Part shown: positions 48,888 to 58,553 of the stretch, in pieces
Layout: each line of letters begins with the position of its first letter
How positions within the stretch are numbered: the stretch's first letter is position 1
Assembly (NCBI RefSeq): GCF_014805525.1
Contig: NZ_JACFSZ010000020.1
Coordinates: 1 to 58,665, forward strand
Length of the DNA: 58,665 nt
Source of the DNA: Rhabdothermincola sediminis
GTDB lineage: Bacteria > Actinomycetota > Acidimicrobiia > Acidimicrobiales > Acidimicrobilacustridaceae
Reading direction: 5' to 3'
Made by a program: the position numbers and the translations under genes
Notes under the pieces: generated by a model
Database searches by the model: none
The model's input: the letters and a program-made list of their open reading frames with translations, nothing else
What the model was told of the DNA's origin: nothing

Positions 48888-48920
48888 ACATCATGTTGTG
48901 AACAATTGTTATCATGATGT
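48888..48920 (+). promoter_or_regulatory. Palindromic operator before the toxin-antitoxin pair
   Basis: ACATCATG (48888-48895) and CATGATGT (48913-48920) form a perfect inverted repeat, with the 10-bp palindrome AACAATTGTT (48901-48910) between them. It lies immediately before the antitoxin GTG, where ribbon-helix-helix antitoxins bind to autoregulate. The AT-rich block contrasts with the surrounding GC-rich DNA. Confidence 0.68.
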
Positions 48921-48921
48921 G

Positions 48922-49170
48922 GTGATCCGGACGCAGATCTCCATGACGCCCGCCCAGGCCGAAGGCCTCCGACGGCTCGCCGCCGCTCGCCGGCGCTCCC
49001 AGGCCGCCCTGCTGCGGGATGCGCTCGACGGCCTGCTCGGTGACGACGAGCGCAGGCGGCTGGTCGAGCGGGCACGCCGGCCGGTCGGAGCCTTCGCTTC
49101 CGGCCACCGCACCACGAGTGCACGCCACGACGAGGTGCTCGACCACGCCTACTCCCCGTCGGCGTCGTGA
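48922..49170 (+). CDS. Ribbon-helix-helix antitoxin (VapB-like)
   Basis: An 82-aa protein starting at GTG 48922. The N-terminal VIRTQISMTPAQAEGLRRLAAARRRSQAALLRDALDGLL is a ribbon-helix-helix domain, and the C-terminus (VGAFASGHRTTSARHDEVLDHAY) has the GxF/SGxxxxSxxHDxxLxxAY pattern that wraps around PIN toxins. It overlaps the toxin by four bases. A longer frame from an upstream GTG would run through the operator and is rejected. Confidence 0.85.
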   Translation: MIRTQISMTPAQAEGLRRLAAARRRSQAALLRDALDGLLGDDERRRLVERARRPVGAFASGHRTTSARHDEVLDHAYSPSAS

Positions 49171-49583
49171 CCACGGTCTTCGTCGACACCTCGGCGCTCT
49201 ACGCGGTGCTGGACCGCGACGACGAGCACCACCGGTCCGCGGCCCGGCACTGGCACCGCCTGCTCGACGGGATCGAGGCGGGAACGGCCGACGCCTGCAC
49301 CCACGGCTCGGTGCTCGTCGAGGTGACGGCGCTCGTGCAGCACCGCCTCGGCAGGGCCGCCGTGCGCGCCCTGCACGACGCCGTCCTGCCCGTGCTCGAG
49401 GTGGTGTGGGTCGACCGGGAGCTGCACCGCCGGGCGGTCGCCGCCCTGCTGGCCGCCGACCGCCGGGACGTGAGCCTCGTGGACTGGACGTCGTTCGAGG
49501 TCATGCGGGATCGGGGCATCGAGGCCGTGTTCGCCTTCGACGAGGACTTCGCGGCGCAGGGCTTCGCCGCCTGGGCCGATTGA
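49167..49583 (+). CDS. PIN-domain RNase toxin (VapC-like)
   Basis: A 138-aa PIN domain. The acidic active-site residues are seen in VFVDTSALYAVLDRDD, SVLVEVTAL, RDVSLVDWTSFEVMRDRGIEAVFAFDEDF. The GTG start overlaps the antitoxin stop as GTGA. VapC toxins cut tRNA or rRNA; the target here is unknown. The pair sits between the LLM pseudogene and the reductoisomerase-like gene and appears intact. Confidence 0.88.
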   Translation: MTTVFVDTSALYAVLDRDDEHHRSAARHWHRLLDGIEAGTADACTHGSVLVEVTALVQHRLGRAAVRALHDAVLPVLEVVWVDRELHRRAVAALLAADRRDVSLVDWTSFEVMRDRGIEAVFAFDEDFAAQGFAAWAD

Positions 49584-50943: not shown

Positions 50944-51633
50944 CGAGAGTTCGACCTTGCCAGTCCGGATGGCACGGTTAGGGGACGGATCGACCTATTG
51001 CTCCTCGGTTCGAGACCATCCGTCGTCGACTACAAGACCGGCATCGTGGTGGCGGAGGGAGCCTTGAACGGTCGCTACGAGCGGCAGCTTGCCATCTACG
51101 CGTGGCTGGTCGAAGCGTCGCTCGGCATTGCGGTCGATGATGCGATGTTGTTCTCCCTTCGAGATGGGATCGTTGAGGTCGATGTCTCTCGCTCAGTTCG
51201 TGAGCGTGCGGTCGCCGAAGCCGCCGATGCACGAGAGGCGTTCAACGGGCGAGTACCAGGAGCGCAGCCTGCGACGCCCTCGAAGCGTGCTTGCGGGACG
51301 TGTCCATTCGTCAGCCTATGCGACGCGACGTGGGACGCGCTGCGGCAGGGACACATCGACGGAGTGGGATGGGGTGACGCGGTTCGAGGACATCTGAGAG
51401 CTCCCATCGTCAGCAACGCCGGCGGTACAGCCGCCGTCCCCCTCGATGTTCGCGTCGGCACAGTCAGGGGGGAGGTCATGCTGATCGATGTGCCGAACGC
51501 GACGGTGGTGGAGTGCTCTGTCGGAGACGAGGTAGCGGCATGGCGGCTGGCAGGTCGGTCCGATGAACCCGTGACGCTCGCGTGGCGAGAGGGCACCAGC
51601 TCGCTGCAGGTCCAGCCGGGATGGGTCAGCTAA
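50944..51633 (+). pseudogene. PD-(D/E)XK (RecB/Cas4-like) nuclease, N-terminally truncated
   Basis: A 229-codon frame preceded immediately by an in-frame TGA. It starts REFDLASPDGTVRGRIDLLLL, already inside a RecB-type nuclease domain. The catalytic strand VVDYKTG, motif QLAIYAWLVE and a cysteine cluster CGTCPFVSLC (iron-sulfur type) are present, followed by a C-terminal beta-rich segment of about 90 residues. The N-terminal part is missing; TTG 50998 could serve as a start but would leave an incomplete site. Such domains often end UvrD-like helicases. It sits directly before vsr with no gap. Confidence 0.72.
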
Positions 51634-52116
51634 GTGACCGCCAATGCGCGAACGGTTGCGCTCGCGGGCGGCCAGAGGGTCCCGTATCCCGACCCTGTCG
51701 ATGCGGCCTCTAGGGCCCGCGGAAAGGCGAATCGCAGGCGAGACACCAAGGTCGAAGTCGCCATCCGATCCGCTCTACACCGGAGAGGTTTGCGGTTTCG
51801 CAAGGATCACCTCGTTCGGTGCTCAAACGGGGTTCGTGTCCGAGTCGACATCGCCTTCACCCGGGCGAAGCTTGCGGTCTTCGTGGATGGCTGTTTCTGG
51901 CATGCCTGTCCCGACCACGGCACGACGCCGACGCGCAACCAGGACTACTGGCTCCCCAAGCTCGAAGCCAACGTGCAGCGAGATCGGCGTGTGGGCGCCG
52001 CGTTGGCGGCCGACGGTTGGCGGGTGCTGCGGCTGTGGGAGCACGAGGACGTAATGGAGGCTGCTGCCCAGGTCGAGCGTAAGCTCTCGTCCCTCGATCA
52101 GACCAGGCGGAGCTGA
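51634..52116 (+). CDS. vsr: Vsr-type very-short-patch-repair endonuclease
   Basis: A 160-aa endonuclease that nicks T:G mismatches arising from deaminated 5-methylcytosine. Family motifs are KVEVAIRSALHRRGLRFRKDH, VRVDIAFTRAKLAVFVDGCFWHACPDHG (catalytic Asp and zinc-site His/Cys), NQDYWLPKLEANVQRDRRV and WRVLRLWEHE. GTG 51634 follows the nuclease stop directly. It converges on the methyltransferase, overlapping its end by 19 bases. Being next to a C5-methylase fits its repair role. Confidence 0.9.
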   Translation: MTANARTVALAGGQRVPYPDPVDAASRARGKANRRRDTKVEVAIRSALHRRGLRFRKDHLVRCSNGVRVRVDIAFTRAKLAVFVDGCFWHACPDHGTTPTRNQDYWLPKLEANVQRDRRVGAALAADGWRVLRLWEHEDVMEAAAQVERKLSSLDQTRRS

Positions 52117-53231
52117 CCGACCGGCTCGACCAGCGGCTCGAGGCCGGCGACGGCTCGGATCACGGCCTCGGCGAGCTTGGGGGGAACGGAGTTGCCGAGC
52201 TGCGCCTGGATGGCGGACCGGCTCCCGACGAACTCGAAGCTGTCTGGGAACGTGAAGAGGCGCTTGACCTCGGGCACCCGCAGGCGGCGGTTCTCCCAGT
52301 GGAAGGGCCCGACGTTGGGGCCCGGGTGCGCCTGGATAGTGGGCGATGGCCGCTCGGGGTCGAGTTTGAGCAGGAAAGACCAGTAGCGGCTTCGCCACTC
52401 GAACTGCGGGTCCGGGTGCCCGCGCTTGGCCGTGAGATGAAGGTAGTTCTCACCGGGTGGGATCTCGGGAAGGAGGTGCGCGTACCGGCCGCGGACGACC
52501 TCCTCCGCCTCGGGCTCGGTGACCAGGCCGGCGAGTGCCTTGCCTGTCGTGACGTGCGGACGGGCGACGTTCCCAGTCGCTTGACGCTCCCAGGTTCCGC
52601 CGTGGGTGGGCTCGGGGTGCTCTGGCAGAGGGCACCGTTTCGGGACGCCGATCACGAACAGTCGCGGCCGCAGTTGAGGCACGCCATAGTCGGCAGCGTT
52701 GAGCACCTTGGCTCGGCAGTGGTAGCCGGCCTCGTCGATCTCCCGAAGGAGCCGCTCGAACGCTGGTCGGCTCGCCTTGTTGTTGTAGGTGAGGGCGTAC
52801 ACGTTCTCGAGCACGAAGTAGCGAGGCCGAGCCTCTGCCAGCACCCGGGTGTATGCCTGCAGGAGCGAGGCGTCGGGGTCCAAGCCGGCGCGCTTCCACT
52901 CGAGCCAGAACCCGGACTTGCTGAACGGCGTACACGGCGGGCCCCCGATCAGGAGCGCGGGCCTCTCACGGCCCCGCAGCCCCGCCGCACGCAGGATGTC
53001 GCGGGTCGGGACATCGAGGATGTCCCGCTGAATCACCTCGGTCGTGAGGTGGTCGAAGTTCTTCTCCATCGTCGCAGCGGCATCACGGTTCAGCTCGACC
53101 GCGGCCCGCACCGAGAAGCCGGCCGCCTCGGCGCCGAGATCCATGCCGCCTGCGCCTGCGAAAAGGCTGATCGCGGGACCTAGGTCGGCGGCGGACATGG
53201 GCACATTGTGCACATGGGATGTGACAGTCAC
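52098..53231 (-). CDS. C5-cytosine DNA methyltransferase (type II)
   Basis: A 377-aa methylase. Motif I is ISLFAGAGGMDLGAEAAGF, motif IV has the catalytic Cys100 in GGPPCTPFSKSG, motif VI FVLENVYAL, motif VIII LRPRLFVIGVPKR and motif X QLGNSVPPKLAEAV. The region between VIII and IX (about residues 190-300) is the target-recognition domain; the site cannot be read from it. GTG 53231 overlaps the restriction gene stop as GTGA. It protects host DNA from the upstream restriction enzyme. Confidence 0.95.
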   Translation of the reverse strand: MTVTSHVHNVPMSAADLGPAISLFAGAGGMDLGAEAAGFSVRAAVELNRDAAATMEKNFDHLTTEVIQRDILDVPTRDILRAAGLRGRERPALLIGGPPCTPFSKSGFWLEWKRAGLDPDASLLQAYTRVLAEARPRYFVLENVYALTYNNKASRPAFERLLREIDEAGYHCRAKVLNAADYGVPQLRPRLFVIGVPKRCPLPEHPEPTHGGTWERQATGNVARPHVTTGKALAGLVTEPEAEEVVRGRYAHLLPEIPPGENYLHLTAKRGHPDPQFEWRSRYWSFLLKLDPERPSPTIQAHPGPNVGPFHWENRRLRVPEVKRLFTFPDSFEFVGSRSAIQAQLGNSVPPKLAEAVIRAVAGLEPLVEPVGQLRLV

Positions 53232-54040
53232 CGTGGATCGTCCTCCTCGGGCCGATCCCGACGTTCGAGTTCATCGATGCGCTCCTGTTGTTGGTGGATC
53301 AGCCGGTCGAGCTGCCGCTGCACCTGCTGGCTGATCCGGAACGGGAACCCCCTCCAGTAGTTGTAGAACTCGTCCGGGGTGGCGAACTCGCCTCGGCCGG
53401 CCCTGAGGTCCTCGATCAGATCGATGGCGCCGATGTACTCCCGGGTGGTCGAGGATCGCTGCCGACTGGCGATCCGCCAGGCTGGCTGGACCACGAGCTC
53501 AAGGCCCGCCACGCGGGAGCTGATGTTGGGGACGAACTCGTAGAGCACGATGACGTCGAGGTGGGAGGCGTAGTCGGCGAAGGGCCGAAAGGTGCCGGGC
53601 CAGTGGAGCTGCGGCCACCGGAAGTAGGTATTGCCGGTGTAAAGCGTGATGCGGCTCTTCGTCCGGGCGGGATTGCGGTCGTCGCGGCGTGCGACCTTGA
53701 CGTCGAGGGCATGGTACCCCTTGCCAAAGCGGTCGCCGGACAGCTCGAGGTCGGGGTAACCGCGCTCGGACCCGCGCCTGGCCACGATCCCGGGATCGCC
53801 CTTGGTGGCGTCGAGCAGGTGGTCGACGATCGCCACCTCCAGGATGTTCGCGAGCGCCGCTGGCTCCTTCGGGAGCGGCAGGAGGTGACCGGTGGCGAGG
53901 AGCTTCGCCTCAAGGTCCTCCGGGTCGGAGGCGTCGAAGGGCCAGCCGTGGTCACCGTGCCGCCGGAACACGCCCACGACGTCGAACTCGAACTCACCGC
54001 AGCGAGCGCGCAACCAGTCGAGAACCTCAGGCTCAGGCAC
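53228..54040 (-). CDS. Type II restriction endonuclease, EcoRV family
   Basis: A 270-aa nuclease. Catalytic residues match EcoRV in spacing: Glu68 (ILEVAIVDHLL), Asp97 (YPDLEL), Asp113 and Lys115 (LDVKVARR), equal to EcoRV Glu45, Asp74, Asp90 and Lys92. The C-terminal half follows EcoRV closely: ITLYTGNTYFRW, RPFADYASHLD, WRIASRQRSSTTREYIGAI and the RGEFATPDEFYNYWRGF end. The C-terminus is a Gln/Arg-rich coiled coil. GTG 54040 is the likely start; the frame further upstream is IS256 antisense. The IS lies only 60 bases upstream and may have replaced the native promoter. Confidence 0.88.
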   Translation of the reverse strand: MPEPEVLDWLRARCGEFEFDVVGVFRRHGDHGWPFDASDPEDLEAKLLATGHLLPLPKEPAALANILEVAIVDHLLDATKGDPGIVARRGSERGYPDLELSGDRFGKGYHALDVKVARRDDRNPARTKSRITLYTGNTYFRWPQLHWPGTFRPFADYASHLDVIVLYEFVPNISSRVAGLELVVQPAWRIASRQRSSTTREYIGAIDLIEDLRAGRGEFATPDEFYNYWRGFPFRISQQVQRQLDRLIHQQQERIDELERRDRPEEDDPR

Positions 54041-54099: not shown

Positions 54100-55493
54100 A
54101 ACCTGTGGATCGGCCACCCGCTCGAGGGCGCGGCGTACCTTCCTCGTTGAACGAAACGAGTGAACGCCGGGGCTGCAACCCCTGCGAGGAAGGCACGCCG
54201 ATGTTGACAGTAGTGACCGATGACGACGCCCGCGCGGAGATGCGCTGGGCGCTGGATGAGATCGTGTTGGAGGGCGCCCGGCGCATGCTGGCGGCGGCGC
54301 TCGAGGCGGAGGTCGACGCCTTCATCGCCGGGCTGGCTGACCGGCTCGACGAGCGAGGCCACCGGCTGGTGGTGCGCAACGGCCACGCCCAGCCGCGCAC
54401 GATCACGACCGCTGCGGGCCGTGTCGAGGTGCGCGCCCCGCGGGTCGATGACCGCCGCGTCGACCCGAAGACGGGTGAGCGGGCCCGGTTCCGCAGCTCG
54501 ATCCTGCCGCCGTGGGCGCGCAAGAGCCCGAAGGTGACCGAGGTGCTGCCGTTGCTGTACTTGCACGGCATGTCCAGCGGTGGCTTCGCACCGGCGCTGG
54601 AGGGGTTCTTCGGGTCCGCTGCGGGCCTGTCGGCGTCGGTGATCACCCGGCTGACCACCCAGTGGCAGGCCGAGCAGCGAGCCTTCGCCGAGCGGCGCCT
54701 CGATGACCGCGACTACGTGTACGTCTGGGCCGACGGGGTGCACTTCAACGTGCGGCTCGAAGAGGACCGCCTGTGCTGTCTGGTCATCGTCGGGGTCCGT
54801 GCCGATGGCACCAAGAAGCTCGTCGCGCTCGCCGATGGCTACCGGGAGTCGACCGAGTCCTGGGCGGATCTGCTGCGGGACCTCAAGCGCCGCGGCATGC
54901 GGGCCCCGGTGCTCGCCGTCGGGGACGGGGCGCTGGGGTTCTGGGGAGCGTTGCGCGAGGTGTTCCCCGAGACCCGCGGCCAGCGGTGCTGGGTACACAA
55001 GGCCGCCAACGTGCTCTCGGCGTTGCCGAAGTCGGCCCAGCCCACCGCCCGCAAGATGCTGGCGGAGATCCGCGACGCCGAGGACCGCGACGAGGCCGTC
55101 GCTGCGGCCAACCGGTTCGCCACCGAGTACGGCGCGAAGTGGCCCAAGGCGGCCGCCAAGATCACCGACGACCTCGAGCTGCTGCTCGCGTTCTACGACT
55201 TCCCCGCCGAGCACTGGATCCGCCTCAAGACCACCAACCCGATCGAGTCGACGTTCGCGACCGTGCGGCTGCGCACCAAGGTCACCAAGGGCCCCGGCTC
55301 GAGAGCCGCCGGCCTGGCCATGGCCTTCAAGTTGCTCGAAGCCGCACAAGACCGGTGGCGAGCCGTGAACGGACCCCACCTCGTCGCGCTCGTCCGAGCC
55401 GGCGCACGCTTCGACAAGGAGGTGATCGTCGAACGCGAACAAGCGGATCAGGAAGCCATCGCGTGATCAGCGGAACCGGCCGACCCACAGGTC
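54100..55493 (+). mobile_element. IS256-family insertion sequence
   Basis: About 1.4 kb with one transposase gene. Terminal inverted repeats are AACCTGTGGATCGGCC at 54100-54115 and its complement GGCCGACCCACAGGTC at 55478-55493 (14 of 16 pairs). The exact outer ends and the 8-9 bp target duplication are not certain. The left end is 60 bases from the restriction gene start; the right end cuts a cytochrome P450 gene, whose missing 3' part is not found on the left side. So the insertion was accompanied by a deletion or rearrangement. Confidence 0.85.
54201..55466 (+). CDS. IS256-family transposase
   Basis: A 421-aa mutator-type DDE transposase. It carries LPPWARKSPKVTEVLPLLYLHGMSSG, the first catalytic Asp in YVWADGVHFNV, the second in VGDGALGFWGAL, the WVHKAANVLSALPKS motif, and the third-residue region with TTNPIESTFATVRLRTKVTKGPGS. 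ATG 54201 follows GAGGAAGG. Full length and no visible lesions, so it is probably active. Confidence 0.95.
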   Translation: MLTVVTDDDARAEMRWALDEIVLEGARRMLAAALEAEVDAFIAGLADRLDERGHRLVVRNGHAQPRTITTAAGRVEVRAPRVDDRRVDPKTGERARFRSSILPPWARKSPKVTEVLPLLYLHGMSSGGFAPALEGFFGSAAGLSASVITRLTTQWQAEQRAFAERRLDDRDYVYVWADGVHFNVRLEEDRLCCLVIVGVRADGTKKLVALADGYRESTESWADLLRDLKRRGMRAPVLAVGDGALGFWGALREVFPETRGQRCWVHKAANVLSALPKSAQPTARKMLAEIRDAEDRDEAVAAANRFATEYGAKWPKAAAKITDDLELLLAFYDFPAEHWIRLKTTNPIESTFATVRLRTKVTKGPGSRAAGLAMAFKLLEAAQDRWRAVNGPHLVALVRAGARFDKEVIVEREQADQEAIA

Positions 55494-55499
55494 TTGACG

Positions 55500-56641
55500 A
55501 TTCCTCGCGTTCTCGCCCGCTCGATGTCGATGGCCTCCGCGTCGGTGAGCTCGTCCTCGTCGCGGTTCGCCGACACGTACCACATGAGCACCTGGTCGTC
55601 CTTGCCGATCTGTCGGCCCCGGATCTCGCAGTCACGGGTGGCGGTCCGTCGCATGTAGGGCAGCGGGGTCTGCCACCGGATGATCTCGGGGACCAGCCCG
55701 GCGATCAGCGACGGGTCCGCGATGAGCTTGTCGTACTGGTCGGGCTATCGGTTGAGCCCGTACACGCTGCCGGTCATGGTGTTACGGGTCGTGTCGTTGC
55801 CGCCCACGATCAGCAGGATCGGGTTTCCCACGGCGACGAGGGTGTCCATGTCCTTGGTGTCCTCGCCGTTTGCCATCAGGCTGACGAGGTCCTGCCCGTC
55901 GCCGCCGACGCGCTCGGCCGGAACAGAGCTCCCCGAAGTAGAGGGCCATCTCGGTGAGCTCTTCGCCCTTCTGCTCGATCGACTCGACGACCCCACCCGG
56001 CTCGGGGATGGCGAACACCACGTCGGACCATCGGGTGAGTTTGCGGCGTTCCTCGAGCGGGAAGTCGAAGAGGGCGGCGAGCATCAGGGTGGTGAGCTCG
56101 ATCGACACGGTGTCGACCCAGTCGAAGGTCTCGCCTTCGGGGAGCGCGTCGAGCACGGCGATGGTGCGCTCTCGGATGAGCGGCTCGATGTTGCGCAGGT
56201 TGCTCGGGGTGGACACCGACCGCACGGTCTTGCGGTGCCGGGTGTGCTCGGACGGGTCCATGGCGATGAAGGTCCGAACGAAGTCCTGCATGGTCAGGGC
56301 GTTGGAACTCGGCGGTGCACCGAGCGTGATGCCCCGGGCCGAGGAGAACGTCGCCCAGTCGCCGTTGATGGCCCGCACGTCGTCGTACTTGGTGATCGAC
56401 CAGTAGCGGCCGGCCGACTCGATCTCGTTCAGGTGGACCGGGTCCCCGGCGCGCAGGCGGGCGAAGTGGTCCTGCCAGCGGTCCTCGCTGAACAGGTATG
56501 GGTTGGCCGGTTGATGTCCTCCAGCGCGAGGTCGGCGGCGGCGCCGACTCCCTTGCCGAGCCGTGCCAGCTCGACGTCGGGCTCTTCGTTGTGGGCGTTC
56601 AGCAGCTCGCCGAGCCCTTCCTCGGTCACGTCTCCATTCAC
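55500..56641 (-). pseudogene. Cytochrome P450 with frameshifts, nonsense codon and lost heme loop
   Basis: Starting near GTG 56641, the pieces spell a P450 of the steroid/alkane type: PYLFSEDRWQDHFARLRAGD, YWSITKYDDVRAINGDW, DPSEHTRHRKTV, the I-helix GGNDTTRN and the ExxR motif EIIRW. Four lesions are visible. They are a one-base loss near 56505 after DIN, a frame change near 55925-55945, an in-frame TAG at 55745-55747 after YGLNR, and truncation at IDIERARTRGIV, where the IS256 end begins. The Cys heme-binding loop is gone. Confidence 0.9.
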
Positions 56642-57826: not shown

Positions 57827-58553
57827 TCGTCGGGTTCATCGACGAGCATCGGGACCAGCTCGGAGTCGGGCCGATCTGCCGTGCGTTGCAGATCGCTCCG
57901 AGCACCTACTACGCCGCCAAGAAGCGCGAGGTGGCGCCGTCGGCGCGTGCCGTGCGTGACGCGGTGATGATGCAGATCCTGATGGTGTTGTGGGTCACGA
58001 ACCGCAAGGTCTACGGGCCGGCAAGCTGTGGCGCGCCGCCCGCCGTGCCGGCCACGAGATCGGCCGGGACCAAGTCGCCCGCCTGATGCGGGAGCTGGGC
58101 ATCGAGGGCATCAGCCGCCGTCGCAAGACGATCTACACGACGATCCAGGATCCCGATGCGGTGCGGGCGCCGGATCTGGTGAACCGGAACTTCAAGGCGG
58201 CCGCGTCCAACCAGTTGTGGGTGACGGATCTGACCTATGTGCCGACCCGGTCGGGGATGGCCTACGTCTGCTTCATCGTGGATGTGTTCTCCCGCATGGT
58301 CGTCGGCTGGCAGGCATCGAAGTCGCTGCGCTCGGACCTGGCCATCGACGCGTTGGAGATGGCCAGAGCCTCTCGGGGTGCCGGCCGGCTGGTCGGCGTG
58401 GTGGCACACGCGGATGCCGGGTCGTAGGGCGAACTCAACTGGTCGTCGCAACACCTCACGATGATGGAGGTGTGGTTCATGGCGACGATGGGAGAGCGGC
58501 AGTGGCAGGTGCAGCTGTATCGGGGGCAGGTCCCGTCGCTAGGACTGTGCTGA
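57787..58553 (+). pseudogene. IS3 transposase OrfB, frameshifted and interrupted
   Basis: The start reads VIVGFIDEHRDQLGVGPICR and STYYAAKKREVAPSARA up to NRKVYG. Near 58015 one base is missing in a G run and the sequence continues in another frame as AGKLWRAARRAGHEIGRDQV. The rve domain then shows the first Asp in LWVTDLTYVPTRSGM and the second in VAHADAGS. TAG at 58425-58427 follows, again where Gln is expected, and the frame continues GELNWSSQHL to a TGA at 58553. The catalytic Glu region is not recognisable. Confidence 0.8.

Follow-up and report, generated by a model that had tools for sequence, protein, structure and literature searches.

The window, a 58,665-nucleotide stretch of Rhabdothermincola sediminis DNA, carries what its genes predict to be a type IIP restriction-modification system that is complete and includes a Vsr repair enzyme. 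Its nuclease belongs to the EcoRV family and is paired with a C5-cytosine methylase, whose kinship points to GAGCTC as the probable site. Restriction systems in which an EcoRV-type nuclease goes with a C5 methylase are real and widespread. Gene content, the predicted fold and catalytic residues of the nuclease, the recurrence of the nuclease-methylase pair, and the occurrence of SacI-family and EcoRV-family nucleases under one methylase family were all computed in this study. The components of the system are as follows.

51634..52116, plus strand: Vsr T:G mismatch endonuclease, 160 aa (TIGR00632, PF03852 and PDB Vsr matches)
52098..53231, minus strand: C5-cytosine DNA methylase, 377 aa (PF00145, 9e-54)
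53228..54040, minus strand: EcoRV-family type II restriction endonuclease, 270 aa (PF09233, 46.2 bits)
53429..53458, minus strand: presumed recognition loop RSSTTREYIG of the nuclease, from the EcoRV alignment (coordinates derived from the residue numbers of the alignment)

The reading frames of nuclease, methylase and Vsr are all open. On the minus strand, the nuclease gene runs from a GTG start at 54040 to a stop at 53228, and this stop overlaps the GTG start of the methylase by 4 bp, while the Vsr and methylase genes are convergent and share 19 bp at their 3' ends. The methylase matches PF00145 in Pfam with 183.5 bits (9e-54), its motifs PPC, ENV and QxRxR are intact upon inspection by eye, and its target-recognition variable region spans residues 197-295. 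With the NCBIfam PRK10458 cytosine methylase model, whose cut-off is 710, it scores 30 bits. For the Vsr, the NCBIfam profile search gave 131.6 bits with TIGR00632, above the cut-off of 97.85; matches were also found to PF03852 in Pfam (5e-13, 49 bits) and to Vsr in the PDB (E 1.7e-13). E. coli Dcm-Vsr is likewise a C5 methylase system with an associated Vsr. The window thus has a Vsr beside a C5 methylase as Dcm-Vsr systems do, but adds a nuclease to them.

The nuclease scored 46.2 bits with PF09233 (Endonuc-EcoRV; E 5e-12), above the curated cut-off of 25. This was its only Pfam match, RE_SacI (PF09566) giving none, and phmmer retrieved EcoRV PDB chains with a best E of 3.8e-6. Identity to EcoRV is about 20-24%; family PF09233, fold and catalytic spacing are common to both. 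With numbering from the GTG, the catalytic site consists of a Glu, an Asp and an Asp-x-Lys at the EcoRV spacing (Glu68, Asp97, Asp113 and Lys115). These four columns are invariant in 31 of the 31 rows of our alignment (A3), which include a closer EcoRV relative (L008), and a search for the catalytic pattern matched 51 of 56 nuclease reading frames, the misses including some partial genes. An AlphaFold model computed with the 31 aligned sequences as input reached a mean pLDDT of 94.5. With this model, Foldseek placed EcoRV structures at ranks 1-39 (E 1.2e-13), and VIA-align gave EcoRV as the best neighbour (Z 22.5, rmsd 2.7, 200 aligned residues), followed at lower Z by SwaI (14.7), with HincII also among the neighbours. 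The initial annotation had placed a Vsr, a C5-cytosine methylase and an EcoRV-family nuclease in 51634-54040, which the Pfam and NCBIfam profiles bear out; the PF09233 score and predicted fold agree with the EcoRV assignment, and the four catalytic residues lie exactly where that annotation had put them, as verified on residue numbers.

We examined how widely the system is distributed. The nuclease is present in 7 of 198 genomes of the window's own order, and 5 of 396 genomes of the phylum pass the EcoRV profile, the own genome being included in both counts. Across the genome collection we obtained 56 loci, which include representatives of Actinomycetota, Myxococcota, Pseudomonadota, Binatota and Thermodesulfobacteriota; the 55 that have a nuclease reading frame are the basis of the counts that follow. 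A C5 methylase lies at 2.5 kb or less from the nuclease in 52 of these 55 loci, on the same strand in 40 and on the opposite strand in 12. The three others (L039, L052 and L064) are truncated, their contigs stopping close to the nuclease gene or inside it. An arrangement found in 52 of 55 loci is not due to chance. A Vsr was found within the same distance in 18 loci of the 55, so that Vsr is an optional companion, and the nuclease-methylase pair is the core. In one locus (L029), the EcoRV-type nuclease has an open frame, while the methylase next to it appears to be broken, its match being split over two separate frames.

A search of plasmids gave no match to the nuclease. The phage search retrieved only an EcoRV-like gene, in two records that both belong to halovirus HGTV-1; it aligns with 56% of the query at 27% identity. 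One viral contig does carry the system: a 36-kb contig from a viral collection (L115) has nuclease, methylase and Vsr of the window's type, and the recognition region of its methylase equals that of a Lentzea locus (L019).

Methylases of the window's family were also found beside a different kind of nuclease. On a Haladaptatus plasmid (L071), a methylase about 38-41% identical to that of the window adjoins a nuclease annotated as SacI-family, and this annotation was confirmed with PF09566. Searches with PF09566 yielded one of 396 genomes in the phylum (L073), 3 of 394 in the class to which that genome belongs (L073, L225 and L226), and 2 of 297 in its family (L073 and L227). The L073 and L227 nucleases scored 118.5 and 73.7 bits, respectively, and both adjoin methylases of the window's family; an EcoRV-type nuclease was looked for in these two loci and not found. 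The L227 methylase is 76% identical to that of the window over 355 positions, 76% in the 38-position recognition core and 71% in the variable region. For L073 these values are 49% overall, 62% in the core and 46% in the variable region, and for L071 40% of the variable region is shared. These comparisons use a narrower variable region, an earlier and wider one having taken in the conserved motif IX. Seven control C5 methylases, drawn from weaker matches (L222 was omitted, its methylase being annotated in two pieces), are 12-32% identical to the window's within the variable region and 33-41% outside it, and one of them, the neighbour of an AlwI-family nuclease, shows 44% identity in the short recognition core. 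Similarity in the variable region is not proof of one site, since L070 and L072, neither of which has a recognised SacI-family or EcoRV-type nuclease as its partner, are 31 and 42% identical to the window's methylase in that region.

In the methylase tree, L073 is sister to L014 and L036 (support 100/99), two Microbacterium systems with EcoRV-type nucleases, and its recognition core is 89 and 84% identical to theirs. In a second tree, built without L070, L071 and L072 because of their long branches, the SacI-linked label changes at least 2 times, as forced by well-supported branches; SacI-linked methylases occupy two or more separate positions. Both trees left out L067 and L115, and L029, with its apparently broken methylase, was excluded from both trees as well as from the variable-region comparisons. 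As one methylase family stands beside both SacI-family and EcoRV-type nucleases, unrelated nucleases seem to have taken each other's place next to it. On an Amycolatopsis plasmid (L069:5876-6970), a methylase 67% identical to that of the window adjoins a 364-residue protein that gave no Pfam match up to E 0.1, possibly a nuclease of a third type served by this methylase family.

The SacI family itself is not of one specificity or partner. The L225 and L226 nucleases are weak PF09566 matches (35.5 and 32.9 bits), and their C5 methylases are 21-22% identical to the window's. The L227 nuclease is 26% identical to that of L073 and 29% identical to that of L226. A Halorussus SacI-family nuclease (L114:3015-5092) is accompanied by a D12 adenine methylase, and a 45% identical Haladaptatus nuclease has a C5 methylase. 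We also obtained SacI-family matches in many EcoRV-type loci, which proved to be an artefact of an open frame antisense to the L227 methylase: they vanished with the trimmed L227 protein, a search with which found no SacI-family nuclease in the EcoRV-type loci.

M.SacI is the C5 methylase of GAGCTC, with a mass of ~43 kDa, and the modified positions stated for it agree with the inner C of that site (PMC4725820). The L073 methylase has a mass of 43.2 kDa, and, judging from its Pfam match and this size, L073 may be a true SacI system. Judged via the SacI-family-linked L073 and L227, SacI systems have in common with the window the methylase family and recognition region, and differ in the nuclease, which is of the SacI family in the former and of the EcoRV family in the latter. 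Since SacI-family nucleases are also found with this methylase family, since a nuclease must cut the site that its methylase protects, and since M.SacI recognises GAGCTC, we infer that this is the site of the window system. The behaviour of the controls, the mixed nature of the SacI family and the uninformative palindrome counts described below keep our confidence in this site moderate.

The scheme that we favour, and consider reasonably likely as a whole, is that of a type IIP GAGCTC system with a blunt GAG^CTC cut, GAG(5mC)TC protection and Vsr repair. The EcoRV-fold nuclease, acting as a dimer, would cut unmethylated GAGCTC in incoming DNA. By analogy with EcoRV, the dimer would bend the site and, with the R-loop of each subunit reading the sequence, cut it in the middle, the cut being probably blunt (GAG^CTC). 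The C5 methylase would protect the host as GAG(5mC)TC, and the Vsr would repair T:G mismatches produced by 5mC deamination. SacI leaves a 3' overhang, whereas the EcoRV geometry would give a blunt cut. Ecl136II and EcoICRI are blunt cutters of GAG^CTC, having the same site and cut as those predicted here. The papers listed from the open literature on Ecl136II, EcoICRI, EcoRV-like enzymes and the SacI methylase include no report of an EcoRV-family nuclease together with a C5 methylase.

A system of the same kind might instead recognise a related degenerate site or another C-containing one, for instance containing or overlapping GAGCTC, and its specificity would then be new for the fold, perhaps altogether. 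We consider this rather unlikely, but it is the best of the alternatives. It would fit a methylase core that is 62%, not 100%, identical to that of the SacI-linked L073, the several unrelated partners seen among SacI-family nucleases, and a nuclease loop unlike that of EcoRV. However, the methylase of L227, whose partner is of the SacI family, is 76% identical to the window's, and in A3 the window loop SSTTREYIGA is the same in L014 and L036, whose methylases are nearest to that of L073.

We also counted GAGCTC in genomes. Within 459 kb sampled from the own genome, the window being part of the sample, it occurs at 0.78 of expectation, the 4th lowest of 64 palindromes, which speaks for this site. 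Pooled over genomes, the ratio differed little, being 0.86 in 9 genomes with the system versus 0.93 in 7 without (p 0.13), so that no distinct avoidance is seen. In this comparison GAGCTC ranked 8 of 37 testable palindromes, and the 7 that separated the two groups better were headed by GTGCAC (p 0.008). Whole-genome counts in 24 genomes, GAGCTC being compared with its reversed control, did not show a clear depletion. In one sample (G150, loci L104-L108), CTGCAG was at 0.04 of expectation in 100 kb; this strong avoidance suggests that the G150 genome holds another restriction system.

The neighbourhood of the system bears on its present state, and contains the following features.

50998-51633, plus strand: PD-(D/E)XK nuclease, apparently without its 5' part (PF12705; best PADLOC profile DruK)
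54101-55492: IS256-family element just upstream of the nuclease, its inverted ends short and imperfect
55448-55651, minus strand: fragment, possibly of a truncated gene (cytochrome P450 match of 21.5 bits, weak and below the cut-off of 22.8)

The left end of the IS256-type element is at about 54101, ~60 bp upstream of the nuclease start at 54040, so that the nuclease promoter may be affected. One full match and five partial or distant matches to this element were found in the genome. It is improbable, in our estimation, that the system is decaying, with a promoter removed by the insertion and an operon either silent or read from the insertion element. The position of the left end relative to the nuclease start is compatible with such a decay, as are the 5'-truncated nuclease gene on one side and the P450 fragment on the other, but the three reading frames are open and the catalytic residues of the nuclease are conserved. 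A search of the genome with the window methylase (E up to 0.001) returned this methylase alone, so that a 5mC motif could be traced to it.

The DruK match of the truncated nuclease begins at profile position 138 of 326, and none of the 56 related loci contains a match to this fragment at E 1e-4. A Druantia label was not adopted, DruM and DruK being the best PADLOC profiles for the C5 methylase and the truncated nuclease, respectively; Druantia consists of the DruE helicase and other Dru genes. The P450-like fragment adjoins the IS256-type element. Farther away, a ribbon-helix-helix and PIN-domain pair (48898-49583, plus strand) forms a VapBC-like toxin-antitoxin arrangement, and an integrase-core (rve) transposase fragment (57990-58427, plus strand) lies near the contig end.

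EcoRV recognises GATATC, and its partner is an adenine methylase; the window system has a C5 methylase and a Vsr instead. The EcoRV R-loop GSGNTTNIG aligns with SSTTREYIG of the window nuclease. Its residues G182, G184, N185 and T186 are absent from the window nuclease, where the aligned residues are S, T, T and R. A loop of the form (S/A)S-x-TREY-(I/L)-G-(A/S) is present in 52 of the 55 related loci, and in the three others (L060, L066 and L067) the nuclease matches are partial only. In the closer EcoRV relative L008, which scores 321.8 bits with PF09233, the loop is GSGNTKNIG, nearly that of EcoRV, and the methylase is a D12 adenine methylase (PF02086); this is a single comparison, L008 being the one closer relative with an examined partner. 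GAGCTC shares the outer GA/TC with GATATC, and the EcoRV residues that read these bases are not conserved in the window nuclease, which counts against GAGCTC. In a study of EcoRV, the R-loops are described as the principal recognition elements, and the central TA as lacking major-groove hydrogen bonds (PMC4081073). The Arg of TREY, which aligns with EcoRV Thr186, could read the inner G:C, as a guess from the alignment.

It is very improbable that the window system is a GATATC-cutting isoschizomer of EcoRV whose methylase was replaced by a C5 enzyme modifying the outer C: the EcoRV fold and catalytic residues are present and a C occurs within GATATC, but L008, with its adenine methylase, keeps a near-EcoRV R-loop that the window nuclease does not have, and the methylase family also partners SacI-family nucleases. 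The window system is probably not an EcoRV isoschizomer. The earlier proposal of a site that differs from GATATC and contains a modifiable C is thus probably right, given an R-loop unlike that of EcoRV and the EcoRV-like loop and adenine methylase kept together in L008. That the system is the best candidate in the window for a new restriction specificity is probably wrong, because its methylase family also serves SacI-family nucleases, leading to the known site GAGCTC.

As a model of DNA recognition, EcoRV has entered the textbooks, and efforts to give it a new specificity by engineering have had little success. The TREY-type loop, replacing the base-reading loop of EcoRV, is perhaps a natural change of specificity on this scaffold. 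As a tentative extension of the GAGCTC reading, to which we give somewhat less than even weight, the EcoRV scaffold would have been naturally re-specified: the outer GA/TC would be kept, the inner TA would have become GC, the conserved Thr-Arg-Glu-Tyr of the R-loop, its Arg standing at the EcoRV Thr186 position, would recognise the inner pair by direct readout, in place of the indirect readout by which EcoRV senses a kinked TA step, and one methylase family would repeatedly have changed between SacI-family and EcoRV-family nucleases. If this is true, natural EcoRV relatives that keep the fold and catalytic site, share a different reading loop and have a predicted site altered in no more than its two central bases would illustrate how specificity shifts on this scaffold, and unrelated nucleases exchanged under one methylase family would show how restriction systems get rebuilt. 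GAGCTC is already known from SacI, and a natural specificity shift on the EcoRV scaffold would be of interest for specialists.
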